Shown here piece after piece: positions 1,737 through 61,989 of a stretch of 64,000 nucleotides of DNA; within the stretch, counting starts at the first letter, position 1; each line of letters starts with the position of its first letter. Made by a program: the position numbers and the translations under genes. The stretch spans positions 4,158,001 to 4,222,000 of the forward strand of contig OX387611.1 of the NCBI GenBank assembly GCA_947568835.1, read 5' to 3'. The stretch is from Protonemura montana. Its lineage: Eukaryota; Arthropoda; Insecta; Plecoptera; Nemouridae. Under the pieces are notes generated by a model that was not told the origin of the DNA, did not search any database, and was given only the letters and a program-made list of their open reading frames with translations.

Positions 1737-2453
1737 CGCCTCTTAGGCTTTACGCTGACGGTTTAGGCGACTATTGTTAGAAAATTGCTTTGCAGGTTTT
1801 GCATTGAAATCTGATTGGCCGGAGGCATTTGATAGTAATAAAAATGGAGGTTATCTGATTTTTCAGCTTGCCTTGTCATTTTGATGTGTCTCAATTTCAT
1901 TAAGACCCTTTTATGAAAGTTATTATTTTATAAAATCAAGTTAAATTCATTTTTGGTCACGAAAAAAACCGGATTTTTATTTTTATTCAAGCTTTAGCTG
2001 TTTTCTGTTAGCAAACCTAATAAGGATTTAAAGTTGATACGTTTAAGTTTCCAGATTTTTTACAGAGATTTTATTTTTGTGGTTAAACATACGTTTAAAA
2101 ATTATTTAGCGGGAAACACGCGGCATATAAAATCCCTATGGTGCCTAGGTAGTGCCTAGTGCCTCTGACTTTACCTATAAACTTAATGCTTGAATACGTG
2201 AGAATTTTAGAGGGAAGTGCCTATAAAGTAGCCAATTGTGATTTGTGTTTTTATAGCAATGGTTACTTTTATGGACTAGATTTTTTTAAGACTATAAAAC
2301 ATGTGCTGCAAAGTTAGCATTCATTCAAGAAGTAATAAAAGTTGTTTTTGATTGCCAAAGATAAAACCCAAGCCATCGCTAACGTTTGACAATATTTACT
2401 GGCTTACACATCTTTCTTTTTGAAAACGTAAAGCGTTTTTGATTGACTGAGTT
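1737..2453. other. AT-rich intergenic DNA
   Basis: No gene, RNA or repeat recognised. The only local structure is a short direct repeat of GTGCCTAG near 2140-2160. Confidence 0.6.
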
Positions 2454-3592
2454 GTGGTGATTAACGACGCATTGTTTTAACACAAGTCTTTAAGGCGCTG
2501 GTTTAATGGCGTCGGTGAATGAGCGGGTGATGATGGAATGATAATAAAGGTAGGAGGGGAAACCCGGTGCCGGCACGTAGCCTACTCCTGTCGAAGAGCA
2601 AGGGGACCACCGGCTTAACGTCCCTTCCGAAGGACGGTACAACGCGAACAACAGGATTCCTCCACAAAGCCATGCTGTTGATAGGTTGATAAGCAAGGCG
2701 AGTGAAGTTGCTGTACTAACTTTCATCCCTCCAACCTCTCTACCGAACAGAACTGATCATGTGTATGATGGTCACCCATCCAATACCTGGCTCAGCGCAG
2801 TGTTGCTTAACTTTCATCCCTACAACCTCTCTCCCGAACAGAACTGGTCATGTGTATGATGGTCACCCATCCAATACCTGACCCAGCGCAGTGTTGCTTA
2901 ACTTTCATCCCTCCAACCTCTCTCCCGAACAGAACTGGTCATGTGTATGATAGTCACCCATCCAATACCTGATCCAGCGCAGTATTGCTTAACTTTCATC
3001 CCTCCAACCTCTCTCCCGAACAGAACTGGTCATGTGTATGATGGTCACCCATCCAATACCTGACTCAGCGCAGTGTTGTTTAACTTTCATCCCTCCAACC
3101 TCTCTCCTGAACTGAACTGGTCATATGTACGATGGTCACCCATCCAATACCTGACCCAGCGCAGTGTTGCTTAACTTTCATCCCTCCAACCTCTCTCCCG
3201 AACAGAGCTGGTCATGTGTATGATGGTCACCCATCAAATACCTGACCCAGCGCAGTGTTGCTTAACTTTCATCCCTCCAACCTCTCTCCCAAACAGAACT
3301 GGTAATGTGTATGATGGTCACCCATTCAATACCTGACGCAGCACAGTGTTGCTTGACTTTCATCCCTCCAGCCTCTCTCCCGAACAGAACTGGTAATGTG
3401 TATGATGGTCACCCATCCAATACCTGACCCAGCGCAGTGTTGCTTAACTTTCATCCCTCCAACCTCTCTCCCGAACAGAACTGGTCATGTGTATGATGGT
3501 CACCCATCCAATACCTGACCCAGCGCAGCGATTCATAACTTCGGTGATCTAACGCGAACCGGTGTTTTTCAACACGGCAAGCATTCAACGTT
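2454..3592 (-). mobile_element. 5S-derived SINE with about 9 tandem 91-bp modules
   Basis: Reading on the minus strand, the 5S-like head is at 3592-3530 (with AACACCGGTT and ATCACCGAAGTT equivalents). Next come nine 91-bp modules spaced at 91 bp, then the body with the CCTTCGGAAGGGACGTTAA core at about 2620-2640, and the 3' end GTGCGTCGTTAA-like at 2454-2475. The tail continues as AATCACC...CAATCAAA. The modules repeat the 5S A-box/C-box region. No clear target-site duplication is visible. Confidence 0.92.
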
Positions 3593-4635
3593 GCTCTAAG
3601 ATATCGGGTTGACTTTCGGAATTTTAAAAATAATAAGTATTAATAATTGTTAAACATATATTGTTACAAACTTAAGATTATATATATTGATAAAGATCGT
3701 CCCATTTTGTGTTTTGCTGTTTAGATTTTTTTTTCTTTTTTAACCGTTCTCATGTTACCAAAATGCACTCCGCAAATAACGTTTTTTGAACTCAATTTTG
3801 CCAACAATTTTTAGTGGTTCTTCAACAAGGAATTCTATAATTTTATCTTTCTTCTGTGGCTGCAATCTTTCAACACAATGAACCAAAAACTGAGTTTCCT
3901 AAAAACAGAATTCGTTTCAAAGCATAAAACCGCTTGTCAATGATTCTGGTAAAAACCATGTCTTTAAAATCAGGAAAAAAAAACACCTTTTTTTATCGCC
4001 CACCGTCTTCAAGAATCCTTTTATTTGCAGCAAAAATATTTCCCCAACTACAACGGTTCAGTGAACATATTCAACCGATAAAACTCGACAGAACAGAATT
4101 AAATCACCAAATTCACAGCGACTTCACCGAATTTTTACAACTCTAGAGCCTTTGTACCTTCTCGGATATTCTTGCCCTTTCATATCTCAATCTCAAATCT
4201 TGCCACAAATTTTCTCAATTTTAAGAGACCTTTTATTCGCAATTTTTTGCCGAAATTGAATCTTCTTGACACGCGAAATCCGCACGCTTCAATGCACTTT
4301 TCACACGCGAACTTAAGAATTGACAGGTTTTAAAGCAAAAAAAAATCCATTTGAAATTTGAAGAGGAATTCAAGGAATTTACCTTAAACATTTAATTAAA
4401 TTACATTTTTTAACCAAAAAAAAACACGTTTTAGCCCCAAATAACCACTTATTTCGGTCGACCACATCATCATACCATACTTCAAATAACTTGATATTTC
4501 TGTGAAACTTTAGCCATAATCACAATACCATTGATTGAAGATGACCGCCGTCAAACACAATGCGTCGTTAAACACTCCGTCTTAATAAAAAAATAATAAT
4601 GTGACTTTGTATGTTTGCTTTAAAAATTTAGTAAG
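3593..4635. other. AT-rich intergenic DNA with a solo SINE 3' tip
   Basis: No convincing gene. A 70-codon open frame at 3934-4146 has no recognisable features and is probably chance. At 4559-4575 there is an isolated copy of the SINE 3' terminus (ATGCGTCGTTAAACAC, plus strand) without body or head, possibly a remnant of an older insertion beside the next SINE. Confidence 0.55.
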
Positions 4636-5328
4636 AATGGTTTGGCGTGTTGGAAACACCGGTCATCGTCAGATCACCGAAGTTAAGTAACACTGCGCTG
4701 GGTCAGGTATTGGATGGGTGACCATCATACACATGACCAGTTCTATTCGGGAGAGAGGTTGGAGGGATGAAAGTTAAGCAACGCTGCGCTGGGTCAGGTA
4801 TTGGATGGGTGACCATCATACACATGACCGGTTCTGTTCGGGAGAGAGGTTGGAGGGATGAAAGTTAAGCAACACTGCGCGGAGTCAGGTATTGGATGGG
4901 TGACCATCATACACATGACCAGTTCTGTTCGGGAGAGAGGTTGGAGGGATGAAAGTTAAGCAACGCTGCGCTGGGTCAGGTATTGGATGGGTGACCATCA
5001 TACACATGACCAGTTCTGTTCGGGAGAGAGGTTGGAGGGATGAAAGTTAGTACAGCAACTTCACTCGCCTTGCTTATCAACCTCTCGACAGCATGGATTT
5101 GTGGAGGAATCCTGTTGTTCACGTTGTACCGTCCTTCGGAAGGGACGTTAAGCCGGTGGTCCCCTTGGTCTTCTACAGAAGTAGGCTAAGTACTGGAGCA
5201 GATTTCTCCTTCACCCGTATCTATTATATAAGGTTCATCATCACCCACTCATCCACTGAAGCTAATTAAACCCGCGCCTCAAAGCTTATTTTTAAAACAA
5301 TGCGTCGTTAAACACAACAAATCAATCA
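4636..5328 (+). mobile_element. 5S-derived SINE, 4 modules, full length
   Basis: The head starts at about 4636 and retains GGAAACACCGG and GATCACCGAAGTTAAG of 5S rRNA. Four 91-bp modules follow, then the body with the conserved core near 5130-5150, and the 3' end TGCGTCGTTAAACAC with tail AACAAATCAATCA. Body position 5040 opens the short conserved reading frame seen in several copies. Confidence 0.93.
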
Positions 5329-7399: not shown

Positions 7400-8087
7400 A
7401 TCGCTTCTGTGCTGGACATTCCGTGACTGGGTGCTTGTTTCGCTCCACGCAAAGGAGCGGACACTCGCCGTCGCCTCTGTGCTGGACATTCCGTGACAGG
7501 GTGCTTGTTTCGCTCCATGCAAAGGAGCGGACACTCGCCGTCGCCTCTGTGCTGGACATTCCCTGACAGTGAGCTTGTTTCGCTCCACGCAAAGAAGCGG
7601 ACACTCGCCGTTGCCTCTGTGCTGGACATTCCGTGACAGGATGCTTGTTTCGCTCCACGCAAAGGAGCGGATACTCGCCGTCGCCTCTGTGCTGGACATT
7701 CCGTGACAGGGTGCTTGTTTCGCTCCACGCAAAGGAGCGGACACTCGCCGTCGCCTCTGTGCTGGACATTCCGTGACAGGGTGCTTGTTTCGCTCCACGC
7801 AAAGGAGCGGACACTCGCCGTCGCCTCTGTGCTGGACAATCCGTGACAGGGTGCTTGTTTCGCTCCACGCAAAGGAGCGGTCACTCGCCGTCGCCTCTGT
7901 GCTGGACATTCCGTGACAGGGTGCTTGTTTCACTCCACGCAAAGGAGCGGACACTCGCCGTCGCCTCTGTGCTGGACATTCCGTGACTGGGTGCTTGTTT
8001 CGCTCCACGCAAAGGAGCGGACACTCGCCGTCGCCTCTGTGCTGGACATTCCGTGACAGGGAGCTTGTTTCGCTCCACGCAAAGGCA
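7400..8087 (-). repeat. 70-bp satellite array, about 10 units
   Basis: Head-to-tail 70-bp units, each containing GTGCTGGACATTCCGTGACA and CGCTCCACGCAAAGGAGCG. The latter is a perfect 6-bp stem with a 7-nt loop. The minus strand has no stop codon in any of the three frames of the unit, and because 70 is not a multiple of 3 one frame cycles through all three; this makes spurious frames of up to 334 codons. The same family recurs at 36970 and 47596. Confidence 0.96.
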
Positions 8088-10621: not shown

Positions 10622-11478
10622 ACGAGGGATGAAAGTTAAGCAACACTGCGCTGAGTCAGGTATTGGATGGGTGAACATCATACACATGACCAGTTCTGTT
10701 CGGGAGAGAGGTTGGAGGGATGAAAGTTAAGCAACACTGCGCTGGGTCAGGTATTGGATGGGTGACCATCATACACATGACCAGTTCTGTTCGGGAGAGA
10801 GGTTGGAGGGATGAAAGTTAAGCAACACTGCGCTGGGTCAGGTATTGGATGGGTGACCATCATACACATGACTAGTTCTGTTCGGGAGAGAGGTTGGAGA
10901 GATGAAAGTTAAGCAACACTGCGCTGAGTTAAATATTGGGTGGGTGACCATCATACACATGACCAGTTCTGTTCGGGTGAGAGGTTGGAGGGATGAAAGT
11001 TAAGCAACACTGCGCTGGGTCAGGTATTGGATGGGTGACCATCATACACATGACTAGTTCTGTTCGGGAGAGAGGTTGGAGAGATGAAAGTTAAGCAACA
11101 CTGCGCTGAGTTAAATATTGGGTGGGTGACCATCATACATATGACCAGTTCTGTTTGGGAGAGAGGTTGGAGGGATGAAAGTTAGTACAGCAACTTCACT
11201 CGCCTTGCTTATCAACCTCTCGACAGCATGGATTTGTGGAGGAATCCTGTTGTTCGCGTTGTACCGTCCTTCGGAAGGGAAGTTAAGCCGGTGGTCCCCT
11301 TGGTCTTCGACAGGAGTAGGCTACGTGCCGGCACCGGGTTTCCCCTCCTCCCTTCTAGGCTAGGTTAGGTTCATCATAATCCTCATCATCATCCACTTAT
11401 TCACCAACGCCATTAGACCAGTGCCGCATGGCTAGATGTCAAAACAGTGCGTCGATAAACACTACAAATAAATTTAAA
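10622..11478 (+). mobile_element. 5S-derived SINE, 6 modules, headless
   Basis: Begins directly within a module (GATGAAAGTTAAGCAACACT), with no 5S head. It has six 91-bp modules, two carrying the variant GAGTTAAATATTGGGTGGG, then body, core near 11265-11285, and 3' end GTGCGTCGATAAACACTAC. The variant module and its predecessor occur twice, suggesting duplication of a two-module block. The 5' truncation is typical of retroposition. Confidence 0.93.
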
Positions 11479-12510: not shown

Positions 12511-13070
12511 ACCGAACGGTTTGTCATGTTGGAAACACCGAAGTTAAGCAACACTGCGCTGGGTCAGGTATTGGATGGGTGGCCATCATACACATGACCA
12601 GTTCTGTTCGGGAGAGAGGTTGGAGGGATGAAAGTTAAACAACACTGCGCTGAGTCAGGTATTGGATGGGTGACCATCATACACATGACCAGTTCTGTTA
12701 GGGAGAGAGGTTGGAGGGATGAAAATTAAACAACACTGCGCTGGGTCAGGTATTGGATGGGTGACCATCATACACATGACCAGTTCTGTTCGGGAGAGAG
12801 GTTGGAGGGATGAAAGTTAGTACAGCAACTTCACTCGCCTTGCTTATCAACCTCTCGACAGCTTGGATTTGTGGAGGAATCCTGTTGTTCGCGTTGTACC
12901 GTCCTTCGGTAGGGACGTTAAGTCAGTGGTCCCCTTGGTCTTCGACAGGAGTAGGCTAAGTGCCAGCACCAGATTTTTCCCTTTCTTTTAGGCTAGGTTC
13001 ATCACTAACTTATTTACCGTGTCACAGGACCAGTTGTCAAAACAGTGCGTCGTCAAACACAACAGAACGG
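12511..13070 (+). mobile_element. 5S-derived SINE, 3 modules, deleted head
   Basis: The head is present (GAACGGTTTGTCATGTTGG) but GGAAACACCG joins directly to AAGTTAAG, missing the segment between two CACCG motifs. Three 91-bp modules, body with core, and 3' end GTGCGTCGTCAAACAC follow. The short body frame from 12809 is open to about 58 codons. Confidence 0.92.
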
Positions 13071-13870: not shown

Positions 13871-13947
13871 GTATGCAAAAAAATTGTTGTCCCTTTTAGG
13901 ATAATGCAAAGTCCAAACTGATCAATAAAAATTTTGATTCAGTGGTA

Positions 13948-14466
13948 CCTAACTCAGCGCAGTATTGCTTAACTTTCATCCCTCCAACCTCTCTCCCGAA
14001 CAGAACTGGTCATGTGTATGATGATCACCCATCCAATACCTGACCCAGCGCAGTGTTGTTTAACTTTCATCCCTCCAACCTCTCTCCCAAACAGAACTGG
14101 TCATGTGTATGATGGTCACCCATCCAATACCTGACCCAGCGCAGTGTTGCTTAACTTTCATCCCTCCAACCTCTCTCCCGAACAGAACTGGTCATGTGTA
14201 TGATGGTCACCCATCCAATACCTGACCCAGCGCAGTGTTGCTTAACTATCATCCCTCCAACCTCTCTCCCGAACAGAACTGGTCATGTGTATGATGGTCA
14301 CCCATCCAATACCTGACCCAGCGCAGTGTGGCTTAACTTTCATCCCTCCAACCTCTCTCCCAAACATAACGGGTCATGTGTATGATGGTCACCCATCCAA
14401 TACTTGATTCAGCGCAGTGTTGCTCAACTTCGGTGATCTCACGACAACACGGCAAACCTATCGGTA
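13948..14466 (-). mobile_element. 5S-derived SINE head plus about 5.5 modules, no body
   Basis: The minus-strand head (GATCACCGAAGTTGAGC equivalent at 14420-14450) is followed by five full modules and a partial one ending at 13948. Body, core and tail are missing, so the element was cut inside a module at its 3' side. This is not ordinary 5' truncation. Confidence 0.88.
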
Positions 14467-15577: not shown

Positions 15578-16004
15578 CTAGATGCTAGAACCGAACGGTT
15601 TGCCGTGTTGGAAACACCGGTTCTCGTTAGATCACCGAATTTAAGCAACACTGCGCTGAGTCAGGTATTGGATGGGTGACCATCATACACATGATCAGTT
15701 CTGTTCGGGAGAGAGGTTGGAGGGATGAAAGTTAGTACATCAACTTCACTCGCCTTGCTTATCAACCTCTCGACAGCATGGATTTGTAGAGGAATCCTGT
15801 TGTTCGCGTTGTACCGTCCTTCGGAAGGGACGTTAAGCCGGTGGTCCCCTTGGTCTTCGACATGAGTAGACTACGTGCCGACACCGGGTTTCCCCTCCTC
15901 GCTTCTAGGCTAGGTTAGGTACATCATCATCCACTCATTCACCGACGCCATTAGACCAGTGCCGCATGGCCAAATGTCAGAACAGTGCGTCGTGAAACAC
16001 CACA

Positions 16005-16045
<41 letters not shown>

Positions 16046-16057
16046 CTAGATGCTAGA
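15578..16057 (+). mobile_element. Canonical single-module 5S-derived SINE with 12-bp TSD
   Basis: The clearest full copy. CTAGATGCTAGA is at 15578-15589 and again at 16046-16057. Between them are the head CCGAACGGTTTGCCGTGTTG, one 5S-like module ending CTGTTCGG at about 15708, the linker GAGAGAGGTTGGAGGGATGA, the body with core at about 15820-15840, the 3' end GTGCGTCGTGAAACACCAC and an AAT microsatellite tail (16005-16042). CCGAAC at the start pairs with GTTCGG at the end of the 5S part, as 5S helix I would. The perfect TSD and microsatellite tail indicate LINE-dependent retroposition. Confidence 0.96.
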
Positions 16058-16455: not shown

Positions 16456-16968
16456 ACGGGTTTGGCGTGTTTTAAACACCGGTCATCGTGATATCACTGA
16501 AGTTAAGCAATACTGCGCTGGGTCAGGTAATGGATGGGTGACCATCGTACACATGACCAGTTCTGTTCGGGAGAGAGGTTGGAGGGATGAAAGTTAAGCA
16601 ACACTGCGCTGAGTCAGTTATTGGATGGGTGGCTATAATATACATGACCAGTTATGTTCGGGAAAGAGGTTGGAGGGATGAAAGTTAAGCAACACTGCGC
16701 TGAGTCAGTTATTGGATGGGTGACCATCATACACATGACCAGTTCTGTTCGGGAGAGAGGATGGAGGGATGAAAGTTAAGCAACACTGCGCTGGGTCAGG
16801 TATTGGATGGGTGACCATCATACACATGACCAGTTCTGTTCGGGAGAGAGGTTGGAGGGATGAAAGTTAGTACATCAACTTCACTCGCCTTCCTTATCAA
16901 CCTCTCGACAGCATGGATTTGTGGAGAAATCTTGTTGTTCGCGTTGTACCGTCCTTCGGAAGTCACTT
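16456..16968 (+). mobile_element. 5S-derived SINE, 4 modules, 3'-truncated in the core
   Basis: The head GTTTGGCGTGTTTTAAACAC and four modules are present, but the element stops inside the conserved core (CGTCCTTCGGAAGT at 16952-16966). Distal body and tail are absent. The loss is at the 3' side, so later deletion or recombination is more likely than 5' truncation. Confidence 0.92.
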
Positions 16969-19204: not shown

Positions 19205-19727
19205 GGGTTATTGATTGATTTCCGATGTTTAACGACGCACTGTTTTGACATCTGGCCATGCGGCACTGATCTGATGGCATCGGTGAATGAGTGGATGATG
19301 ATGAACTAAACCTAGCATAGAAGAAAGGAGGGGAAACCCGGTGCTGGCACGTAGCCTACTCCTGTCAAAGAGTACCATTGGGACCACCGGCTTAACGTCC
19401 CTTCCGAAGGACGGTACAACGCGAACAACAGGATTCCTCCACAAATCCATGCTGTTGATAGGTTGATAAGAAAGGCGAGTGAAGTTGCTGTACTAACTTT
19501 CATCCCTCCAACCTCTCTCCCGAACAGAACTGGTCATGTGTATGATGGTCACCCATCCAATACCTGACCTAACGCAGTGTTGCTTAACTTTCATCCCTCC
19601 AACCTCTCTCCCAAACAGAACTGGTCATGTGTATGATGGTCACCCATACAACACGGTGACTCAGCGCAGTGTTGCTTAACTTCGGTGATCTCATGAGAAC
19701 CGGTGTTTCTAACGCGCCAAACCGTTC
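19205..19727 (-). mobile_element. 5S-derived SINE, 2 modules, full length
   Basis: Minus strand: head at 19727-19680 with GAGATCACCGAAGTTAAG, two modules, body with core near 19395-19410, 3' end GTGTTTAACGACGCACTG at 19206, and tail in element sense ATCGGAAATCAATCAATAA. The body frame from 19503 is open for 63 codons. Confidence 0.93.
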
Positions 19728-19747
19728 GGTGTTAGATTTCGAGCACA

Positions 19748-20335: not shown

Positions 20336-20676
20336 GATGAAATCTTATTGAAATTGCAAACGCTTGCAATGCGCGGGGTATTTTATTATTATCAACGCTA
20401 TAACCGTCTCAAAGATTGATGCCCAATCGGGGACTCGAACACCGATCTCCGCCTGTCGTAGGTGTTGCTCTAACCAATTGAGCTACTTGGACCCCGATCT
20501 CCACCTGTCATGGGTGTTGCTCTAACCAATTGAGCTACTTGGACCTCGATCTCCACCTGTCGCGGGTGTTGCTCTAACCAATTGAGCTACTTGGACCCCG
20601 ATCTCCATCTGTCGCAAGTGTTGCTCTAACCAATTGAGCTATTTGGACACTTGCTTTTTGAGACGATTTTAGTATT
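20336..20676 (-). mobile_element. tRNA-like SINE with 4 tandem A-box modules
   Basis: Minus strand. The usual 3' end is on the left (GATGAAATCTTATT, GCAATGCGCGGGG) and the leader on the right. In between, the tRNA-like part is present four times as 52-bp units (each with GCTCTAACCAATTGAGCTA, i.e. the A box on the minus strand). Only the unit nearest the element's 3' end continues into the B box (GGGACTCGAACACC, minus strand) and acceptor-like end. The junction always falls at GATCGGGG|TCCAAG. Confidence 0.92.
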
Positions 20677-26400: not shown

Positions 26401-27301
26401 GTAAGCCCCATCGGAAATTCAAAGCCCCCAATCTTTTTTACCTTTTTGCGGGTGTTGCTAACGATTTTAGCTAACTAAAAATGACAAATTTCTGAATTAT
26501 CTGATAAGTGAAACATTTTGGAGAAGTTATGAGTGAAACCCTGAAAGAAGGATGTGATTAGTGAACTTGGTAAGTGAGGTAACAGTTCCCAGACTCCGTT
26601 CAGTGCCATTCTGTCAGATGCGAGAATAACACATGAATGATAATTCAGTTTTGATTTTAGTGCAAGATTGCAAAATATCGTTTTGGGGTGACCACCAAAA
26701 AACGGCAATTCCACCACTAAAATCACTACTGAAATTTCATTCAAGGGGTTAGTAGCAATTCTGGGGGCAGTCCTTGTGCTGGTATCTTCTCTGACGGGCT
26801 AGACTGTAGAAATGCAGGGGATAGTCCTTGTGCTGGTATCTTCTCTCACGGGCTGGACTGTAGCAATGCAGGGGACAGTTCTTGTGCTGGTATCGTCTCT
26901 CACAGGCTAGACTGTAGCAATGCAGGGGACAGTCCTTGTGTTGGTAACTTCTCTCACGGGCTAGACTGTAGCAATGCAGGGGACAGTCCTTGTGCTAGTA
27001 TATTCTCTCACAGGCTAGGCTGTAGCAATGCAGGGACGGTCTTTGTACTGGTATCTTTTGGCTGGACTGAAGCTTAGTTATAGTAGTAGTTACTTTTTGT
27101 TAAGGCTTACACATTAAACAACTTCTCTTCGTCCGTGAAGAGGCTGGGAACAGAGCCCATGAGAGGCCATCCAGTTGGTCCAGGAAACGCCTGGGACATC
27201 CACCACGTGCGCACAAGCCTCACTGCGTAGCTGGCTCCCCACGACAAGATGGCCGCCATCACTGCCGCTTGCAGCGCCTCGGAGGCCGTCCACGAAACCA
27301 T
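23499..27301 (-). CDS. Cytochrome P450, CYP4 clan, four exons, 507 aa
   Basis: Haem-thiolate monooxygenase, expected to be ER-anchored; substrate unknown. Exons: 27301-27111, 26324-25939, 25482-25322, 24284-23499 (stop TGA). Lengths 191, 386, 161 and 786 sum to 1524 nt (507 codons plus stop) with matching phases 2, 1 and 0; donors are GTAAGC, GTGAGA and GTAATA, and acceptors end AAAG, CCAG and TCAG. Visible: N-terminal hydrophobic anchor (about 8-30), hinge PGPTGWPLMG (40-49), CYP4-type LRRKMMTPAF (132-141), I-helix AVVETT with acid-alcohol pair E312-T313, K-helix ESMR (367-370), PERF (417-420), and haem loop FGGGVRQCIA with Cys448. Length is normal for the family. Odd points: Ala where the C-helix Trp is usual, no Gly in the I-helix motif, and Ala instead of the last Gly of the haem motif. 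All introns contain repeats. The subfamily cannot be named from sequence alone. Confidence 0.94.
24365..24756 (-). mobile_element. Arm of the large foldback element (P450 intron 3)
   Basis: Contains one 60-bp module in minus orientation (CAACACGTGGTAACGGTAGG, GCCACACGATGGCGCTTGCG at about 24413-24450). The rest of the arm follows: a hairpin (CTCGTAGGTTACTCGCTTTT against AAAAGCGAGTTAACCTACGAG) and the outer end GGCCATCTTTCACGCAGA. It is homologous to 34697-34925 and 59175-59485. It lies wholly inside the intron between exons 3 and 4. Confidence 0.85.
24757..25231. repeat. 47-bp minisatellite, about 10 units (P450 intron 3)
   Basis: Head-to-tail 47-bp units with GGTTTAACATTAACGTTCTG, CTCTACCTAGAACCTGCACA and CTCAAC. 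The unit resembles the GTTTAACATTAACGCTGGCT...CTCAATG segment that follows the 60-bp module in the foldback element, so it appears to be amplified from that element, one arm of which directly abuts it. Confidence 0.94.
25733..25846 (-). mobile_element. Half foldback element (P450 intron 2)
   Basis: A single arm of the foldback family: AGGACTGCTCTTACCCTTGA, GAAGAAGTAACAGG, GTTACGAAACGTCG, ending AAATAGTTTTTGTTA. The terminal TTTTTAGACTCATG part is absent. It sits between exons 2 and 3. Confidence 0.85.
26750..27056. repeat. 54-bp satellite, about 5.6 diverged units (P450 intron 1)
   Basis: Same family and orientation as 1-1736 (GCTGGTATCTTCTCTCACGG, GCAATGCAGGGGACAG), but units carry more substitutions (for example TGACGGGC, TATCGTCTC, ACTAGTATATTC). 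Located between exons 1 and 2. Confidence 0.95.
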
Positions 27302-27689: not shown

Positions 27690-28252
27690 CTAATGGTAGT
27701 ATGGCGTTAATGAATGAGTAGTTGATGACGATGATATCTAGCCTAGCCTAGAAGAGAAGAGGGGAAACCCGGTGTCTGTACGTATGCCTACTCCTATCGG
27801 AGAGCACCAAGGGGATCACCGGCTTAAAGTCCTTTCCGAAGGACGGTACAACGCGAACAACAGGATTCCTCCACAAATGCATGCTGTCGAGAGGTTGATA
27901 AGCAAGGCGAGTGAAGTTGTTGTTCTAACTTTTATCCCTCCAACCTCTCTCCCGAACAGAACTGGTCATGTGTATGATGGTCACCCATCCAATACCTGAC
28001 CCAGCGCAGTGTTGCTTAAATTTCATTCCTCCAATCTCTCTCCCGAACAGAACTGGTCATGTGTATGATGGTCACCCATCCAATACTTGACTCAGCGCAG
28101 TGTTGCTTAACTTTCGTCCCTCCAATCTCTCTCCCGAACAGAACTGGTCATGTGTATGATGGTCACCCATCAAATACCTGACCCAGCGCAGTGTTGCTTA
28201 ACATCGGTGATCTCATGAGAACCGGTGTTTCCAACACGGAAAACCGTCTCTA
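27690..28252 (-). mobile_element. 5S-derived SINE, 3 modules
   Basis: Minus strand: head at 28252-28200 (GGAAACACCGGTTCTCATGA, GATCACCGATGTTAAGC), three modules, body with core near 27828-27845 and distal body. The extreme 3' terminus (ACGACGCAC) is not recognisable, so the 3' end is damaged. Confidence 0.9.
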
Positions 28253-29516
28253 AATGATGTCGCTTTATGTGCGCAAGGTATACCGGGAATTTGGCATTGC
28301 ATTCAAGGGCATTTTTTTCCATTGAAAACACGGAAATTAGTTAATAAGCTAGCTTTACTTTTTAAATTAGCGTGTTTTGAAAACGTATCCTCTTTCCCCT
28401 CATCTGCTTCTACTTATTTTATCCATCTTTCTCTTGGTCTTCTTCTTCCCCTTCTCTAATGTTCCTAGCTATACTTCTTTCTTGGCAATCTTTCTTCCTC
28501 CATTCTGATAATATTTCTAAATATGATATGAGTTTTTCCAAATCACAACCAAGTTAGATTATATTTTTTTTATAGTAAGCAAAATTGTGGTCCAATTGGC
28601 TTATGGAACAACAATCTCAGTGTTAAACAAATCTTAAAACAATTTTTGTGTTGGCAGACCTTTTCTGCGCTTTACACGATTTTACTCTTTCAATTTTTGT
28701 TTGTAATTTAGCACAAAAACACGGCCGCCATTTTGTGTTCGTTTGTGTCAGATCAGACAAGTTTGGAGCAGAATATTTGATATTTTCCTGCACTAGTCTT
28801 GGAGGTTGTGTGATTTTGAGCAAAAACAAATAAAACATACAAAAACACAACTCACGAAAACTCATAAAAACTCTGACAATACCGGAGAAAGCAATTTTCA
28901 ACTCACCTTTTGATATTTGTGACACACTTTAAAGTGAAACACACTTTTGTGCTTAAAAAAATTACAATCAAAAACCAGCCACTATCTTAAAGTTTCTACC
29001 TAAAGTTTAAATTACATCCCATTTTGAAAAGTCTTTTTAGGCTTCTACTGTCACTTCTAGGACCACAGATTCTTCACGACTAAACGTAGACAGACTTAGC
29101 CACTGTCCTTTTATATACAAGGATCTCGATTATTCAAAAATATATATTTAATTTTGGGTAAACATCAATTTTGTGCCTGTCTTTTGTCGATTCAGTCTTT
29201 AAAGAATAATTACATGTCATTTTATCAATTCTACATATGCGAAATTCTTCAAGTGTAACGGAAAAATCGTGTCTATGCACACTAGTGCGTAAAATTGCAC
29301 AAGGCTAAAACAAATTGCACAGTGAAATTGCATTTTAAGTCTCTTTTATTGCTAAAGAACAACGAAAAATGCATTCAAACATGTGTTTTAGAGGCATCAA
29401 TAATGTGCCATTTTTGAGTAAAAATGTATGAATAATTCAAAACAATTGGTATTAAAAAAATTATTGACTAATTCTATGCTTTCATTGTCTATCTTTTTTC
29501 ATGGTTACAGGATAGT
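28253..29516. other. AT-rich intergenic DNA
   Basis: Open frames on both strands at 28623-28925 have no recognised motif. No repeats seen. Confidence 0.5.
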
Positions 29517-30790
29517 TAGGCGTGTTAGAAACACCGATTCTCCGAAGTTAAACAACATTACAGTAGGTCAGGTATTGGATGGATGACCACCAAATGTTTG
29601 GCGTGTTGGAAACACAGGTCCTCCTGAGATCACCGAAGTTAAACAACACTGCGCTGGGTCAGGTATTGAATGAGTGACCATCATACACATGACCAGTTCT
29701 GTTCGGGAGAGAGGTTGGAGGGATGAAAGTTAAGCAACACTGCGCTGGGTCAGGTATTGGATGGGTGACCATCATACACATGACCAGTTCTGTTCGGGAG
29801 AGAGGTTGGAGGGATGAAAGTTAAGCAACACTGCGCTGGGTCAGGTATTGGATGGATGAACATCAAACACATGACCAGTTCTGTTCGGGAGAGAGGTTGG
29901 AGGGATGAAAGTTAAGCAACACTGCGCTGGGTCAGGTATTGGATGGATGAACATCATACACATGACCAGTTCTGTTCGGGAGAGAGGTTGGAGGGATGAA
30001 AGTTAAGCAACACTGCGCTAGGTCAGGTATTGGATGGATGAACATCAAACACATGACCAGTTCTGTTCGGGAGAGAGGTTGGAGGGATGAAAGTTAAGCA
30101 ACACTGCGCTGGGTCAGGTATTGGATGGGTGATCATCATACACATGACCAGTTCTGTTCGGGAGAGAGATTGGAGGGATGAAAGTTAAGCAACACTGCGC
30201 TAGGTCAGATATTGGATGGATGAACATCAAACACATGACCAGTTCTGTTCGGGATAGAGGCTGGAGGGATGTAAGTTAAGCAACACTGCGCAGGGTCAGG
30301 TATTGGATGGATGAACATCATACACATGACCAGTTCTATTCGGGAGAGAGATTGGAGGGATGAAAGTTAAGCAACATTGCGCTGGGTCAGGTATTGGATG
30401 GGTGACCATCATACACATGACCAGTTCTGTTCGGGATAGAGGCTGGAGGGATGTAAGTTAAGCAACACTGCGCAGGGTCAGGTATTGGATGGATGAACAT
30501 CATACACATGACCAGTTCTGTTCGGGATAGAGGCTGGAGGGATGTAAGTTAAGCAACACTGCGCTGAGTCAGGTATTAGATGGGTGACCATCATACACAT
30601 AACCAGTTCTGTTCGGGAGAGAGGCTGGAGGGATGAAAGTTAAGCAACACTGCACTAGGTCAGGTATTGGATGGATGAACATCATACACATGACCAGTTC
30701 TGTTCGGGAGAGAGGTTGGAGGGATGAAAGTTAAGCAACACTGCGCTTGGTCAGGTATTGAAAAAATGACCATCATACTCATGAAAATAT
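29517..30790 (+). mobile_element. 5S-derived SINE array with two heads and about 13 modules
   Basis: A first short head-plus-partial-module (29517-29590, stopping after GGATGGATGACCACCAAA) is followed at once by a second head (GTTTGGCGTGTTGGAAACAC, GATCACCGAAGTTAAAC). About thirteen 91-bp modules follow, with no body or tail. The variants GAACATCAAACAC and GATAGAGGCTGGAGGGATGT alternate, showing block copying of two or more modules. The end decays at 30770-30790. Confidence 0.92.
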
Positions 30791-31617
30791 GCCACTCGCT
30801 TTATACCAATATTTAAAATCAAAATGTCACATTCAACTAACTATAAAAGACCATTCACTTGTCATAAAAAAAGTAACTAACACTGGCACTTTGTCAGTCA
30901 CGCTAAACCACTATCTTAAAACTTGAAACATGAGCTCAGCAATATGACTTTTAACTTCCTATGCATAATACCAGCAGAATCTTCTTTCAAACGATATATT
31001 TTTTACTTTCTTTTATAGATGAATAATATCCCCGGTATAGAGCCCATTTTAAGGGTCGCTCTAACCTCAATGATATGGTAAAATCTTAAATGGACTAATA
31101 GCTTCAATTTAATGGTGATTCATTGTACAGTTTCGATGCCTAAAGGTGATCCATGGCATGGTGCGTAAGCCTTTTGATGGATCTACATTAGGTAAATCAT
31201 AAATTCATTGTGCATTTTTGTTAATATATGCGGCAAATGCCCCTTCATTTAGGGTGGCAAGGGTTAAGGGTTGAAAACGGGTGCAAGCAACTTGATAGGG
31301 GTTGGATAGGACCTGACTTTGTAGTAATTATATGTGAATGACTTTGCCGATATTTGATACACCTTTACAGGCGCTCTTAATGCAGGTAGAGGTAAATTGG
31401 TACTATATCGGAAGGCTGTGGTTTTTCATGTTTCTAATGTATGCAATATCTTTCAAAAACTTTTAAAAAAGATGCGATTTGATAGATACATTTTTAAAAT
31501 TACCGTGCTGTCAAAAAAGGGATACGAATTTTTCTTTATTTTGACTTATAGTTCAAAGTTTCTCTAATAATTTCTTGATTTTTGAAACTTTTGCTATGAT
31601 GTAAAACTCGTTTTACT
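30791..31617. other. Intergenic DNA
   Basis: AT-rich; no feature recognised. Confidence 0.5.
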
Positions 31618-32096
31618 ACCGAACAGAACTGGTCATGTGTATGATGGCCACCCATCCAATACCTAGCTCAGTGCAGTGTTGCTTAACTTTCATCCCTCCG
31701 ACCTCTCCCGAACAGAACTGGTCATGCATATGATGGTCACCCATCCAATACCTGACCCAGCGCAGTGTTGCTTAACTTTCATCCCTCCAACCTCTCTCTC
31801 GAACAGTCTGGTCATGCTTATGATGGTCACCCATCCAGTACCTGACCCAGCGCGGTGTTGCTTAACTTTCATCCTTCCAACCTCTCTCCCGAACAGTCAG
31901 GTCATGCTTATGATGGTCACCCATCCAGTACCTGACCCAGCGCAGTGTTGCTTAACTTTCATCCCTCCAACCTCTCTCCCGAACAGTCTGGTCATGCTTA
32001 TGATGGTCACCCATCCAATACCTGACCCAGCGCAGTGTTGCTGAACTTCGGTGATCTCACGAGGACCTGTGTTTCCAACACGACAAACATTTCGGT
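31618..32096 (-). mobile_element. 5S-derived SINE head plus 5 modules, no body
   Basis: Minus strand: head at 32096-32045 (GGAAACACAGGTCCTCGTGA, GATCACCGAAGTTCAGC), five modules, then an abrupt stop inside a module at 31618. Three modules share the variant CAGTCTGGTCATGCTTATG or close to it, a local block copy. Confidence 0.9.
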
Positions 32097-32290
32097 TCGA
32101 CATAGAACTGCAGAAGGAACAGTTTGGGAAATCCCCGCTTGGCCACATTGCCGTTATCATATCATTTGAATATAGTTATAAGCAAAAAGGAAAGAGGGTT
32201 TATTAACTGGGCTACAAAATAATACCAATTTGTTCTTAGACCAAAAACCAGACATAAAACATAGTTTTTATTGGAAAGGAAGCTAGACTG
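32097..32290. other. Short spacer
   Basis: Nothing recognised. Confidence 0.4.
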
Positions 32291-33647: not shown

Positions 33648-34020
33648 GTTCCGTCATTCTCATCAAATACACTAAAATCGTCTCAAAGAGCCAGTGTCCA
33701 AATAGCTCAATTGGTTGGAGCAACACCCGCGACAGGTGGAGATCGGGGTCCAAGTAGCTCAATTGGTTAGAGCAACACCCGCGACAGGTGGAGATCGGGG
33801 TCCAAGTAGCTCAATTGGTTAGAGCAACACTCGCGACAGGTTGAGATCGGGGTCCAAGAAGCTCAATTGGTTAGAGCAACACTCGCGACAGGTTGAGATC
33901 GGGGTCCAAGAAGCTCAATTGGTTAGAGCAACACCCACGTCAGGTGGAGATCGGGGTTCGAGTCCCCGTTTGAGCATCAATTTTTGAGACGTTTATAGTG
34001 TTCATAATAAATAAGATTTC
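33648..34020 (+). mobile_element. tRNA-like SINE with 5 tandem A-box modules
   Basis: Leader CATTCTCATCAAATACAC, then module starts (GTCCAA) at 33695, 33748, 33800, 33852 and 33904, spaced 53, 52, 52 and 52 bp, each with an A-box-like AGCTCAATTGG. Only the last module runs into the B box GGTTCGAGTCC (about 33955). The trailer TTTTTGAGACGTTTATAGTG follows, and a shortened 3' end lacks the CCCCGCGC segment. Confidence 0.93.
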
Positions 34021-34925: not shown

Positions 34926-35477
34926 GTTGTTTCTGTTTAACAGTTGCTCTGGGACTCTGACTGAACCTATTAAGCCAATCTGTTAATATTTTTTTATAAA
35001 ATTCTACCAAAATCGTTAGATTTTTCCAAAACACAGGACTCCATTATGTGGTGGAGTTCATGAGCTTATGAACATTTTGTCTTCGCAGGGGTCAGCTCCT
35101 GTCAGTACATAGACCATTCATTGATCAATGAATCGCGTCATTCAACAGATGTTTGTAGAAAATGATGCCATTGATTAGAACGTTGCGTCATACGATTCAT
35201 TATAGAAACGGTTCAATCAAAGGGTTATACATTTTTTTTTTTTTTTTTTTTTTTTTTTTGGTTAGGGCTGTTTGTTTCTGGAAATTTCTAGCAGTGTTAA
35301 GTTTTTTAGCAAGCTCATTTTTTAAGATTGTTTTACTGCTTTTCCGCAATACTGCGTGCCCTAAAAGAATACTGGAACACACTTTATTATGCAAAAAAGT
35401 TGTGTACAATATTAACTTGTGGAACCAGACGAAACTAGCAAACAAAATCAAAATGTAATTTCATTAGCCTCTTGCTG
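34926..35477. other. Intergenic DNA with T28 tract
   Basis: T homopolymer at 35232-35259. Frames through it are artefacts. Nothing else recognised. Confidence 0.5.
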
Positions 35478-35985
35478 GTTACCAATCTAATACCTGATTC
35501 AGCGCAGTGTTGCTTAACTTTCATCCCTCCAACCTCTCTCCCGAACAGAACTGGTCACGTATATGATGGTCACCCATCCAATACCTAACCTAGCGCAGTG
35601 TTGCTGAACTTTCATCCCTCCAACCTCTCTCCCGAACAGAACTGGTCATGTGTATGGTAGTCACCCATCCAATACCTGACCCAGCGCATTGTTACTTAAC
35701 TTTCATCCCTCCAACCTCTCTCCCGAACAGAACTGGTCACGTATATGATGGTCACCCATCCAATACCTAACCTAGCGCAGTGTTGCTGAACTTTCATCCC
35801 TCCAACCTCTCTCCCGAACAGAACTGGTCATGTGTATGATGGTCATCCATCCAATACCTGACCCAGCGCAGTGTTGCTTAACTTTCATCCCTCCGACCTC
35901 TCTCCCGAACAGAACTGGTCATGTGTATGATGGTCACCCATCCAATACCTGACCCAGCACAGTGTTGCTTAACGGAGATCTCACA
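35478..35985 (-). mobile_element. 5S-derived SINE modules (about 6), degraded head, no body
   Basis: Minus strand: remnant head at the right (GAGATCTCCGTTAAGC equivalent) and about six modules. Two modules carry the rare ACGTATATGATGG variant and sit 182 bp apart, again a two-module copy. Body and tail absent. Confidence 0.9.
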
Positions 35986-36241
35986 AGAATCGTAAATCCC
36001 GTAAATCGCATCGCTATTTCTTGTCATTCATTTAACAAGTGGGTTGGGTGCAGAAGAAAGTCACGCAATACCAGAGAGTGGCCAGAGGCTTTAAAAGCTT
36101 TAATTGTTTCAGTAATGCTATGATTACGACAACTCCTGTATGGAACATGGTCTAACTACGTTCGTGAATTAGTACCTGGTCATAGAAGGATGATGAAAAA
36201 ATTCTCACGTAGACTTGGAAACTGACCATAGACTGAAAAAA
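35986..36241. other. Intergenic DNA
   Basis: Nothing recognised. Confidence 0.4.
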
Positions 36242-36969: not shown

Positions 36970-38358
36970 AATTACGGAATGTCCAGCACAGAGGCGACAG
37001 CGAGTGTTCGCTCCTTTGCGTGGAGCGAAACAAGCACCCTGTCACGAAATGTCCAGCACAGAGGCGACGGCGAGTGTCCGCTTCTTTGCGTGGAGCGAAA
37101 CAAGCACCCTGTCACGGAATGTCCAGCACAGAGGCGACGGCGAGTGTCCGCTCCTTTGCGTGGAGCGAAACAAGCACCCTGTCGCGGAATGTCCAGCACA
37201 GAGGCGACGGCGAGTGTCCGCTCCTTTGCGTGGAGTGAAACAAGCGCCCTGTCACGGAATGTCCAGCACAGAGGCGACGGCGAGTGTCCGCTCCTTTGCG
37301 TGGAGTGAAACAAGCACCCTGTCACGGAATGTCCAGCACAGAGGCGACGGTGAGTGTCCGCTCCTTTGCGTGGAGCGAAACAAGCACCCTGTCACGGAAT
37401 GTCCAGCACAGAGGCGACGGCGAGTGTCCGCTCCTTTGCGTAAAGTGAAACAAGCGCCCTGTCACGGAATGTCCAGCACAGAGGCGACGGCGAGTGTCCG
37501 CTCCTTTGCGTGGAGTGAAACAAGCACCCTGTCACGGAATGTCTAGCACAGAGGCGACGGCGAGTGTCCACTTTTCTGCGTGTAGTGAAACAAGCACCCT
37601 GTCACGGAATGTCCAGCACAGAGGCGACGGCGAGTGTCCGCTCCTTTGCGTGGAGCGAAACAAGCGCCCTGTCGCGGAATGTCCAGCACAGAGGCGACGG
37701 CGAGTGTCCACTTTTCTGCGTGTAGTGAAAAAGCACCCTGTCACGGAATGTCCAGCACATTGGCGACGACGAGTGTCCGCTCCTTTGCGTAGAGTGAAAC
37801 AAGCACCCTGTCACGGAATGTCCAGCACAGAGGCGACGGCGAGTGTCCGCTCCTTTGCGTGGAGCGAAACATGCACCCTGTCACGGAATGTCCAGCACAG
37901 AGGCGACGGCGAGTGTCAGCTCCTTTGCGTGGAGTGAAACAAGCACCCTGTCACGGAATGTCCAGCACAGAGGCGACGGCGAGTGTCCACTTTTCTGCGT
38001 GTAGTGAAACAAGCACCCTGTCACGGAATGTCCAGCACAGAGGCGACGACGAGTGTCCGCTCCTTTGCGTGGAGTGAAACAAGCACCCTGTCACGGAATG
38101 TCCAGCACAGAGGCGACGGCGAGTGTCCGCTCCTTTGCATGGAGTGAAACAAGCGCCCTGTCACGGAATGTCCAGCACAGAGGCGACGGTGAGTGTCCGC
38201 TTCTTTGCGTGGAGCGAAACAAGCACCCTGTCACGGAATGTCCAGCACAGAGGCGACGGCGAGTGTCCGCTCCTTTGCGTGGAGTGAAACAAGCACCCTG
38301 TCACGGAATGTCCAGCACAGAGGCGACGGCGAGTGTCCGCTTCTTTGCGTGTAGCAAC
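36970..38358 (+). repeat. 70-bp satellite array, about 20 units
   Basis: Same family as 7400-8087, opposite orientation (GGAATGTCCAGCACAGAGGC, CGCTCCTTTGCGTGGAGCG). A variant unit with CCACTTTTCTGCGTGTAGTG recurs at about 37568, 37708 and 37988 (spacing multiples of 70), indicating block copying. All three plus-strand frames are open, giving spurious frames up to 199 codons. Confidence 0.97.
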
Positions 38359-39830: not shown

Positions 39831-40565
39831 ATCAAGTCCTGAAGCCATATGCTTTTTTGTTTAAATCATATTTCGATGATATCTAACATATATGTATTCA
39901 CTTTGTTTTTTACTCAAAATACAAAATGTTGCTTACAATTTTCAAATAGTATCGAATTTTCAATTCAATGTTCATTCATTTGATGTTCAAGACAAACCAC
40001 CAGTTTCAAAACAGCAGCGTTTTATGACCAACGGTCAAGAATTCAAACAATGCTTCCAGATTTAAAAATGATGAAGACAAAACTCTCATTTGAAAATCTG
40101 ACTTCTGTTCTCTTAATTTTAATGTGTAACTTTATTGACATATCAAAATGTTCAGCCTAAAATGTGTAAAGATTGAGTTTAAGTTCCGTTTAGAAAATCA
40201 ACTAATTTTCTCACAAGTAATTACGAAATTAAATCATCTAATTTGATGCAACCACTTTTTGTGGGTTCCTTAGCATGGGTTGGAATTGTTTCCATAAGTA
40301 GGGTAATTTTAGGTGTAAATTGGTGAAATTATGTGTTTGATACGGTGGTAAAATCAAGACTAAATTGGTCGAGTTAAGCGTCAAAGCTTTTTGATCTTCG
40401 ATTAAATTTATGGTATCGATTGACGATTATTTTAATACGATCGATAACTCAATTTATAAACATGAAGAAGCAACAATTGGGTTAAAAGTGACGATAAAAT
40501 TATAAAAAACCATTGGGTTTAAAAGACTTATTGAAAATTAGATATGAGTTATTTCTTCAATTAAG
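39831..40565. other. AT-rich intergenic DNA
   Basis: Nothing recognised. Confidence 0.5.
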
Positions 40566-41422
40566 TTCTGTTCGGGAGAGAGGTTGGAGGGATGAAAGTC
40601 AAGCAACACTGCGCTGGGTCAGGTATTGGATGGGTGACCATCATACACATGACCAGTTCTGTTCGGGAGAGAGGTTGGAGAGATGAAAGTTAAGCAACAC
40701 TGTGTTGGGTCAGGTATTAGATGGGTGACCATCATACACATGACCAGTTCTGTTCGGGAGAGAGGTTGGAGGGATAAAAGTTAAGCAACACTGCGCTGGG
40801 TCAGGTATTGAATGGGTGACCATCATACACATGACCAGTTCTGTTCGGGAGAGAGGTTGGAGGGATGAAAGTTAAGCAACACTGCGCTGGGTCAGGTATT
40901 GAATGGGTGACCATCATACACATGACCAGTTCTGTTTGGGAGAGAGGTTGGAGGGATGAAAGTTAAGCAACACTGCGTTGGGTCAGGTATTTAATGGGTG
41001 ACCATCATACACATGACCAGTTCTGTTTGGGAGAGAGGTTGGAGGGATGAAAGTTAAGCAACACTGCGCTGTGTCAGGTATTTGATGGGTGACCATCATA
41101 CACATGACCAGTTCTGTTCGGGAGAGGGGTTGGAGGGATGAAAGTTAGTACAGCAACTTCACTCGCCTTGCTTATCAACCTCTCGACAGCATGGATTTGA
41201 GGAGGAATCCTGTTGTTCCCGTTGTACCGTCCTTCGGAAGGGACGTGAAGCCGGTGGTCCCCTTGGTCTTAGACAGGAGTAGGCTACGTGCCGGCACCGG
41301 GTTTCCCCTCCTCCCTTCTAGGCTTGGTTAGGTTCATCATCATCCACTCATTCACCGACGCCATGTAACGAGTGCCGCGAGGCTGGTTGTCAAAACAGTG
41401 CGTCGTTTAAAACAATAATCAG
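40566..41422 (+). mobile_element. 5S-derived SINE, 6 modules, headless
   Basis: Starts inside a module (GTTCTGTTCGGGAGAGAGG); six modules; body and core (CCTTCGGAAGGGACGTGAA); 3' end GTGCGTCGTTTAAAAC and tail AATAATCAGTC. The body frame is broken by TGA at the usual Cys codon (GATTTGAGG). ATTAAG flanks both ends, too short to call a target duplication. Confidence 0.92.
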
Positions 41423-45218: not shown

Positions 45219-45887
45219 AATTCAACACGTCCTCCAATCCAAAACGGTTCAGAATTAAGATTGTTTGGCCTATTGAAAACATTGGTCCTCGTGAGATCAC
45301 CGATGATGTTAAGCAACACTGCGCTGAGTCAGGTATTGGATGGATGACTATCATACACATGACCAGTTCTGTTCGGGAGAGAAGTTGGAGGGATGAAAGT
45401 TAAGCAACACTGCGCTGGGTCAGGTATTGGATGGGTGACCATCATACACATGACCAGTTCTGTTTGGGAGAGAGGTTGGAGGGATGAAAGTTAAGCAACA
45501 CTGCGCTGAGTCAGGTATTGGATGGGTGACCATCATACACGTGACCAGTTCTGTTCGGGCGAGAGGTTGGAGGGATAAAAGTTAGTACATCAACTTCACT
45601 CGCCTTGCTTATCAACCTCTCGACAGCATAGATTTGTGGAGGAATCCTGCTGTTCGCGTCCTTCGGAAGGAATATTAATCTGGTGGTCCTTTTGAAGCTT
45701 TTTTAAAGTAGGCTACGTACTGGCACCGGGTTTCCCCTCTTTTCTTCTAGGCTGGATTAGGTTAATAATTTTTCTCTTTATAATCCACTCATTCACTAAC
45801 GCCATTAGACCAGTCCTTCATAGTGCGTTGTCAAACCAGTGCGTCGTTAAACACCAATAATTAATTAATCTAATTCAACACGTCCTC
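45219..45887 (+). mobile_element. 5S-derived SINE, 3 modules, with 16-bp TSD
   Basis: AATTCAACACGTCCTC at 45219-45234 and 45872-45887. Head GTTTGGCCTATTGAAAACAT with GATCACCGATGATGTTAAGC (small insertion), three modules, body with a damaged core (CGTCCTTCGGAAGGAATATT), and 3' end GTGCGTCGTTAAACACC with tail AATAATTAATTAATCT. The long exact target duplication confirms retroposition of a multi-module copy as one unit. Confidence 0.95.
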
Positions 45888-46201: not shown

Positions 46202-47023
46202 ATTTTGTCTTTCTGGTGTTTAACGACGCACTACTTTGACAACGCGCCATGTAGCACTTGTCTAATGGCGTCGGTGAATGAGTGGATGATGATGAACCTA
46301 ACCTAGCCTGGAAATGTAGAGTAAACTCGGTGCCGGCACGTAGCCTACTCCTGTCGAAGAGCTCAAAGAGTACCAACGGCTTAACGTCCCTTCCGAAGGA
46401 CGGTACAACGCGAACAACAGGATTCCTCCACAAATCCATGCTGTCGAGAGGTTGATAAGCAAGGCGAGTGAAGTTGCTGTACCAACTTTCATCCCTCCAA
46501 CCTCTCTCCCGAACAGAACTGGTCATGTGTATGATGGTCACCCATCCAATACCTGACCCAGCGCAGTGTTGCTTAACTTTCATCCCTACAACCTCTCTCC
46601 CGAACATAACTGGTCATGTGTATGATGGTCACCCATCCAAAACCTGACCCAGCGCAGTGTTGCTGAACTTTCATCCCTCCAACCTCTCTCCCGAACAGAA
46701 CTAGTCATGTGTATGATGGTCACCCATCCAATACCTGACCCAGCGCAGTGTTGCTTAACTTTCATCCCTCCAACCTCTCTCCCGAACAGAACTAGTCATG
46801 TGTATGATGGTCACCCATCCAATACCTGACTCAGTGGATTGTTCCGTCCTTCGGAAGTGACGTTAAGCCGGTGGTCCCCTTAGTCTTTAAAAGGAGTAAA
46901 CTACGTGCCGGCACCGGATTTCCCTTTCTCTCTTCGATGCTAAGTTAGGTTCATCATCATCCTTATCATCACCCACTCATTGACCGTATCATGTATTTAA
47001 TAACTTGCCACTAAAATTTTGTC
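46202..47023 (-). mobile_element. Head-to-head (snap-back) 5S-derived SINE
   Basis: A minus-strand copy with tail, body and four modules (46210-46836) is joined directly to a plus-strand body and distal body (46837-47015: CCGTCCTTCGGAAGTGACGT onward), making an inverted repeat of the body. ATTTTGTC at 46202-46209 and 47016-47023 may be the target duplication. The body frame in the minus copy (46492-46298) is open for 64 codons. Confidence 0.85.
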
Positions 47024-47163: not shown

Positions 47164-47595
47164 CAAATCGCAGAGCTCAACTACCAACTATTCGTTGCAT
47201 CGACTGTACCCAAGAAGCTCCACACGACTACGCTCGTGGGTGGGAGTCGAGACACGATGAACGAGGCTTCAGAGCTCGCCGACATGTCACGATCTCGCAG
47301 CACAGGCGCAGCCAGAAGGCTGTTGGATCGTCCTGAGAACCTTAGTAAGCCAGACATTCTCACGGCCTTCCTAGCTCGGCATCATCGCGGTCACACGAGA
47401 CACCGCCCTCGCAATACAAGCGCACGACGCTCGCGTGGCAACATCGAGGCGAAGCTCCCATTTTTTAATTTAGGCTTCCTATTGATTGAAATCGGACTCC
47501 TGTTAGTCAATTGACCACCCAAAATGTCTTTGTCGTCAGTGTTAATTAGTTTTACTATTCGCTTCTTCAGATGAGATGTTATTGTTTCTTATTGT
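47164..47595 (+). other. GC-rich segment with unrecognised 92-codon frame
   Basis: 47170-47460 is GC-rich and open on the plus strand (47236-47514, Arg/Ser-rich, ending in a hydrophobic FFNLGFLLIEIGLLLVN stretch that is AT-coded). No family recognised. It could be a real exon: its composition resembles the P450 exons more than the surrounding DNA. Confidence 0.3.
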
Positions 47596-61651: not shown

Positions 61652-61989
61652 GTGAGTTATGAACTCAAAAGTAATTGCTTAAGTTTTGTGGGAATTGGTC
61701 AGATAAATCGGGGGAATTGAGCGATGAAGGAAGCGGTGATGCTGTTTTTTTTGGTTGTAGAAGACTTAGCGCGATTTTCTAAACCGAATACAGGTGTTTC
61801 TTGTGTAGTGTTTTATCGTCGTTTTTGCTGTCTTTTTTTTTAAATTAGTTGGGAATACATTTTGAGTTTCTTATAACTTCATGTGTCTTCTTGACAAATA
61901 ATGGCGTCCTTTTATCGGGCAAAATAATTTTGAGGTCATATTTCTTCGAGTTTTTAACTTCTGTCCTTAAGAAAATTAAGATGTATCAT
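61652..61989. other. Intergenic DNA
   Basis: Nothing recognised. Confidence 0.4.

Follow-up and report, generated by a model that had tools for sequence, protein, structure and literature searches.

The basic element and its arrays

The window, by which we mean the whole 64-kb stretch of DNA analysed, contains one clean single-module copy of a SINE derived from 5S rRNA and 17 multi-module copies, in which a 91-bp module is repeated in tandem (Table 1). The single-module copy has the limits originally predicted for it, 15578-16057, exactly, with CTAGATGCTAGA present at 15578-15589 and again at 16046-16057, and its assignment as a 5S-derived SINE is borne out by the presence of a 5S head, an unrelated body, a microsatellite tail and target duplications. 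An Rfam search of the window gave a 5S rRNA match at 15591-15709 (57.4 bits), and the gathering score of RF00001 is passed at 6 places in the whole window.

The 91-bp module is composed of 5S nucleotides 49-92, which include the internal promoter, and 47 bp of SINE body unrelated to 5S; the head together with module positions 1-44 matches the genome's own 5S gene. (Host 5S genes occupy C11:70-105743, at the contig start, with the strand order plus, plus, minus recurring every ~9.5 kb.) Each module was correctly predicted to hold the whole 5S internal promoter: the consensus box A 12-mer AAGTTAAGCAAC and the consensus box C 14-mer TTGGATGGGTGACC are both exact in the host 5S gene, and the module sequence between the two boxes is changed relative to it. 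The G with which the A box was said to open is found only in the module next to the head, later modules having A there. In the single-module element the 6-bp direct repeat AAGTTA lies exactly at both module edges, 91 bp apart; the left one is AAGTTA in the consensus and is mutated to AATTTA in the 15578 copy. This repeat is the likely seed of the tandem duplication. A second array type has a 92-bp unit with other edges, consisting of the head and module positions 1-45, and is represented by 2,296 junctions; the two types are mixed at locus L050. A third repeat unit from the same SINE is seen at L057 (34-337), where a 15-bp fragment of the module, present ~20 times, precedes a 4-module copy. 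A count of 23 modules at L057 was rejected as an artefact of this 15-bp repeat, the true number being 4 full modules.

Our module counts agree with those given earlier for the copies then named, namely 2 (19226, minus strand), 3 (12511 and 45263), 4 (4635 and 16459), 6 full (10633 and 40564), 9 (2453, minus strand) and, at 29515, 12 full with two partial. Eight arrays were absent from that list, seven on the minus strand (13946, 27701, 31616, 35473, 46214, 50863 and 54109) and one on the plus strand (61987). A recognisable tail is missing from 4 of the 17 multi-module copies and a head from 8.

Table 1. Copies of the 5S-derived SINE in the window, with the parts of the single-module copy
Feature	Position	Strand	Remarks
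Single-module copy	15578-16057	+	12-bp target duplications, 15578-15589 and 16046-16057
Its head	15590-15637	+	
Its module	15638-15728	+	
Its tail	from 15729	+	
Its (AAT)n	16005-16042	+	
Module with bounding direct repeat	15638-15734	+	AATTTA 15638-15643, AAGTTA 15729-15734; spacing 91 bp
9-module copy	2453-3580	-	head and tail
4-module copy	4635-5319	+	head and tail; old head/tail 12.4% diverged, modules 1.9%
6-module copy	10624-11466	+	no head; private changes of modules 3-4 common to 5-6
3-module copy	12511-13064	+	head and tail
5 full modules and a partial	13946-14430	-	no head, no tail
4-module copy	16459-16962	+	shortened tail
2-module copy	19226-19730	-	head and tail
3-module copy	27701-28247	-	head and most of tail
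12 full modules	29515-30784	+	second head with partial module ahead; no tail
4 full modules and a partial	31616-32097	-	head; no tail
5 full modules and a partial	35473-35992	-	no tail
Partial module, then 6 full	40564-41406	+	partial starts at module position 60; tail
3-module copy	45263-45856	+	diverged head and tail; imperfect 21-bp target duplication
3 full modules and a partial	46214-46843	-	tail; adjoins inverted tail fragment 46839-46962
Partial module, then 3 full	50863-51452	-	partial starts at module position 47; tail
Partial module, then 2 full	54109-54571	-	tail
Partial module, then 3 full	61987-62571	+	partial starts at module position 53; tail

Abundance and genomic placement

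The whole 258-Mb genome was searched for the three types of junction, allowing up to 2 mismatches, and 26,396 module-module, 7,789 module-tail and 10,092 head-module junctions were found; the reversed-pattern controls gave 0 matches for each of the three. The arrays are therefore far beyond chance, and the original observation of tandem modules is confirmed on a larger scale than first noted. Taken at face value, 1 + 26,396/7,789 would give ~4.4 modules per tail-bearing copy, an estimate biased upwards by tailless arrays.

A sample chosen by position, consisting of the window and 20 stretches of 10 kb on contigs C1-C3, contains 31 copies with at least one module match. With partial modules counted, the numbers of modules (copies) are 1 (8), 2 (2), 3 (6), 4 (5), 5 (1), 6 (3), 7 (1), 9 (2), 10 (1), 14 (1) and 15 (1), the longest array read thus having ~15. 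Among the 23 multi-module copies of this sample, 7 retain head and tail, 4 the head only, 9 the tail only and 3 neither, so that part of a SINE is tandemly repeated with SINE ends at the array, as in a SINE-derived satellite. The number of modules per copy thus ranges from 1 to ~15, a range that local tandem growth probably accounts for in the main.

Placement of the arrays is uneven. Among the 20 stretches, in which the contig ends covered are the low-coordinate ones, arrays are present in all four that lie no further than 1.7 Mb from a contig start and in none of the 16 elsewhere, where six single-module matches were found. Tandem repeats of many kinds (unit at least 30 bp) make up 15-61% of the four array-bearing stretches, 0-12.6% of the other 16 and 25.9% of the window. 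On C1, among the matches listed, exact module junctions occur at 20 loci below 2.4 Mb and 2 between 2.4 and 11.95 Mb, and module-tail junctions at 18 and 30 loci respectively; the C1 interior also has arrays, 17 of 37 exact-junction loci among the matches listed lying beyond 2.4 Mb. The bias is thus strong at the low-coordinate ends of C1-C3, although these contig starts may not be telomeric and the window itself lies 4.16 Mb inside C14, away from the contig start.

Several other repeats were noted. Dispersed arrays with 54-, 70- and 41-bp units, in both orientations and lacking an obvious common element, are found in the window at 1-1736, 7401-8085, 26752-27057, 36974-38351, 47592-48215, 49276-50253 and 60228-61037. 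A tRNA-like sequence is present in an element with inverted-looking ends (approximately ACACTAAAATCGTCTCAAAA / TTTTGAGACGGTTATAGTGTT) at 20442-20648 and 33696-33957 of the window and at L034 and L041; its 52-bp A-box part occurs 4-5 times at the two window places, ~8 times at L034 and 10.6 times at L041, with the B box present once. At L042 (1-4800, C1:8951901-8956700) there is a long inverted duplication, with arms 96% alike, that runs through two SINE copies of 3 and 5 modules with different tails. Because tail-to-tail pairs lie ~3-4 kb apart on C1, we considered whether the arrays might be the inverted ends of a larger foldback transposon; this was rejected, since L042 and L043 have only SINE sequence in common. 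C4:5760925-5762262 (nuclear) and C34:3504-4841 (likely a mitochondrial contig) match cox1 over equal lengths and with equal scores, which reflects either a recent copy in the nucleus or an assembly problem. The mitochondrial genes point to an invertebrate, probably one resembling an arthropod.

Insertion, turnover and probable homogenisation of modules

Target duplications with a score of at least 9 were found at 11 of 36 tail-bearing copies, compared with 3.3% of 211 mismatched flank pairs. Multi-module copies flanked by a target duplication include those at L054 (2 modules), L042 (3), window position 45263 (3), L056 (4) and L045 (5; read by eye). The most informative is L047, in which the 5' end falls at module position 53 and is followed by 7 full modules and a tail, with a perfect 14-bp duplication, AAACACTGGACTCC, on both sides. 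A single-module RNA cut at position 53 cannot yield full modules, and L047 must therefore have had at least 2 modules when it inserted. At least one 5'-truncated multi-module copy has thus been inserted by target-primed reverse transcription, and L047 is the one firm case here of a multi-unit insertion that starts inside a unit, as L1 monomer arrays do.

Modules are also gained and lost within loci. Private changes show that modules 2-5 of L043+ return as modules 6-9, a block duplication. The modules of L043+ and L048, which share both flanks (by eye), agree one by one except that L048 has no module 3. L043 and L048, at 20.98 and 22.42 Mb of C1, represent a single SINE insertion present twice together with its flanks, so that the surrounding stretch is itself duplicated or mobile.

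No module order common to unrelated loci was found among 35 arrays of at least 3 modules: the observed score of 155.6 compares with 156.0 +/- 1.1 for shuffled arrays and was reached in 30 of 60 shuffles, while the L043+/L048 pair, as a positive control, gave 82.5; the test is blind if the source modules were identical. Within loci, the ratio of pairwise distance to summed distance from the consensus is 0.844 (bootstrap 95% 0.782-0.903, 34 arrays), and the corresponding ratio between loci is 0.972. Modules within a locus are thus mostly star-like: the larger part of the divergence is confined to individual modules, as if many consensus-like modules existed early, and a minor part is shared. It follows that much amplification took place at, before or soon after insertion, which argues against slow growth alone. 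Expansion solely after insertion, with no order shared between loci, had been set out beforehand as the counter-case to a multi-promoter family. The lack of shared order and the gain and loss of modules after insertion agree with it, but the amplification of L047 before insertion and the mostly star-like divergence do not.

Module divergence tracks that of head and tail in single-module copies (n=14, rho 0.70, p 0.005, slope 0.89), seven of which were top similarity-search matches and so picked for low divergence, and one of which (window 57640) is a fragment with a shell 4.2% and a module 23.5% diverged. In multi-module copies no such relation is seen (n=32, rho -0.18, p 0.33, slope -0.03), the modules staying ~3% diverged whatever the head and tail divergence. 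Where head and tail are at least 5% diverged, modules are 10.2% diverged in single-module copies (n=5) and 3.4% in multi-module copies (n=18). The oldest third, ranked by tail divergence, has tails 10.3% diverged against 3.3% for the modules, and in all 9 copies the singleton rate is higher in the tail; poorly sampled subfamilies with old-looking tails could inflate these singletons and produce part of the young-core pattern. Over the full set of copies, 11 of the 21 whose head and tail are less than 4.5% diverged have a target duplication, as opposed to 1 of the 15 more diverged ones (p 0.005); head and tail divergence therefore reflects age. Restricted to multi-module copies, the counts become 5 of 13 and 1 of 11, and there the clock is weak, since higher divergence brings no drop in target-duplication score (n=24, rho -0.05). 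With these reservations, homogenisation between loci goes beyond that of the parent SINE, as in SINE-derived satellites. Homogenisation within loci alone was considered and dropped, since exchange within a locus does not return modules to the family consensus.

In 229 modules, box A is perfect in 172 (75%) and spacer 12-mers in 73% on average, and box C is perfect in 121 (53%) and spacer 14-mers in 69% on average; preferential conservation of the boxes over the spacer was not found, and there is therefore no sign that promoter function maintains the modules. TTTT occurs in 4 of 229 modules and in 10 of 43 tails, and read-through from any module would therefore be possible in principle. The start of a 5S-like transcript would fall at module position 44, and the partial modules of 3 of 11 headless copies start within 4 bp of it (~1.1 expected, p ~0.09 by hand). 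The repeated promoters appear to be mainly a by-product, although each may still start transcripts.

Origin of the arrays and comparison with known systems

We propose, with a probability of about 0.7, that the arrays are a 5S-SINE-derived minisatellite that started from a 6-bp direct repeat, grew and was homogenised through recombination, and has at times been re-mobilised. The proposal builds directly on the AAGTTA edge repeat, on the gain and loss of modules and blocks within loci, on modules that do not age with head and tail, on the position of sampled arrays in repeat-rich regions near contig starts, and on the insertion of L047 with several modules. The lack of a shared module order, the boxes being conserved no better than the spacer, and the second, 92-bp type of duplication also speak for it. 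The first duplication would have arisen by slippage or unequal exchange between the AAGTTA repeats; unequal exchange and gene conversion between arrays would then alter copy number and homogenise modules across loci, and occasional retrotransposition would re-disperse multi-module copies. The uniform 91-bp edges are as compatible with descent from a multi-module source as with slippage that recurred.

The original prediction, which is partly supported, was of SINEs with several promoters in a row. An alternative in this vein is an active multi-promoter family comparable to mouse L1, in which multi-module RNA would be mobile, reverse transcription would alter the number of modules, and spare modules would keep 5'-truncated copies transcribable. 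L047, with its internal start, full modules and perfect duplication, supports this alternative, as do the target duplications of the five other multi-module copies named above and the star-like modules of most arrays; a transcript could cross an array with so few TTTT runs, and homogeneous source modules would also mask a shared order. Against it, no module order is shared, the boxes are not preferentially kept, modules are ~3% diverged regardless of head and tail, and the 5' ends of headless copies have no clear cluster at the expected start. Arrays, moreover, track the region and not the copies, sitting among other amplified tandem repeats, and repeats that have no promoter behave likewise there; that arrays are a property of the transposing unit was accordingly not borne out. 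We regard such a family as unlikely. A related view, that the SINE family refreshes its promoters, with tandem type 1 promoters keeping 5'-truncated insertions transcribable, multi-module copies as the mobile form, and recombination among thousands of arrays rejuvenating old loci at their promoters, seems to us similarly doubtful.

Arrays might also move as DNA, for example as excised circles re-inserted by homology into old SINE copies, to give young cores in old shells. Young modules inside old copies would fit, as would the 4 of 17 window arrays with no tail and the lack of a common flank beside the 54-, 43- and 41-bp arrays of the window, among the matches listed (the best 12 for flanks that match the arrays themselves); however, no circle or junction was observed and gene conversion fits the same data, which makes this route improbable. 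An assembly or chance artefact has a very small probability and is refuted in the main, for although exact assembly of short arrays is difficult and exact counts of long arrays are less certain, there are 26,396 junctions against 0 in the reversed control, private changes tag single modules, and paralogues agree module by module.

For a minisatellite grown from a SINE, one known route of birth is the model of Haber and Louis, as told in PMC6947457, in which 5-10 bp direct repeats within transposable elements serve as the seed. The 6-bp AAGTTA at the unit edges resembles such a seed, but here thousands of loci have identical edges. The head with boxes A, IE and C, joined to an unrelated body and tail, is like that of SINE3 and other 5S-derived SINEs, such as HaSE3 (PMC3272025) and those of PMC10886601; unlike our element, none is reported with tandem modules in the passages of these papers that describe them, and the word 'tandem' is absent from the main text of PMC3272025. 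A literature search of limited scope found no 5S-derived SINE with such module arrays, so absence is not proven.

The closest known kind is the SINE-derived satellites (sSats) of squamate reptiles, in which, according to passages of Vassetzky et al. 2023 (PMC10702118), part of a SINE is tandemly repeated; the unit of snakes has 67 nt, with promoter box B and some of the body. As described there, sSats likewise keep one or both SINE ends at the array, have locus-specific alternating subvariants at thousands of loci, and have units that differ less from locus to locus than do the parent SINEs. A subtelomeric preference is also described for them; the sampled arrays here lie near low-coordinate contig starts of C1-C3, which may or may not be telomeric. 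Unlike the sSats of those passages, the parent here is a 5S SINE and the unit holds a whole type 1 promoter, both ends are kept in 7 of 23 sampled multi-module copies, target duplications are visible, and one multi-module insertion is known; the longest array read here has ~15 modules, compared with up to hundreds of units in snakes. We may thus be looking at an early passage from SINE to satellite, in a genome where single-module copies and arrays coexist and many still have target duplications, and in which the order of steps is readable: direct repeat, first duplication, local growth, homogenisation and re-mobilisation.

The monomers of mouse L1 promoters, as treated in passages of PMC6454616, are also variable tandem promoter units on the 5' side of a retrotransposon, with copies that start inside a unit. 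They differ in belonging to a Pol II LINE in which truncation sites mark start sites, whereas the 5' ends here are not clearly clustered and the promoters are putative. If the modules are active, they would be to Pol III what the monomer promoters of mouse L1 are to Pol II.
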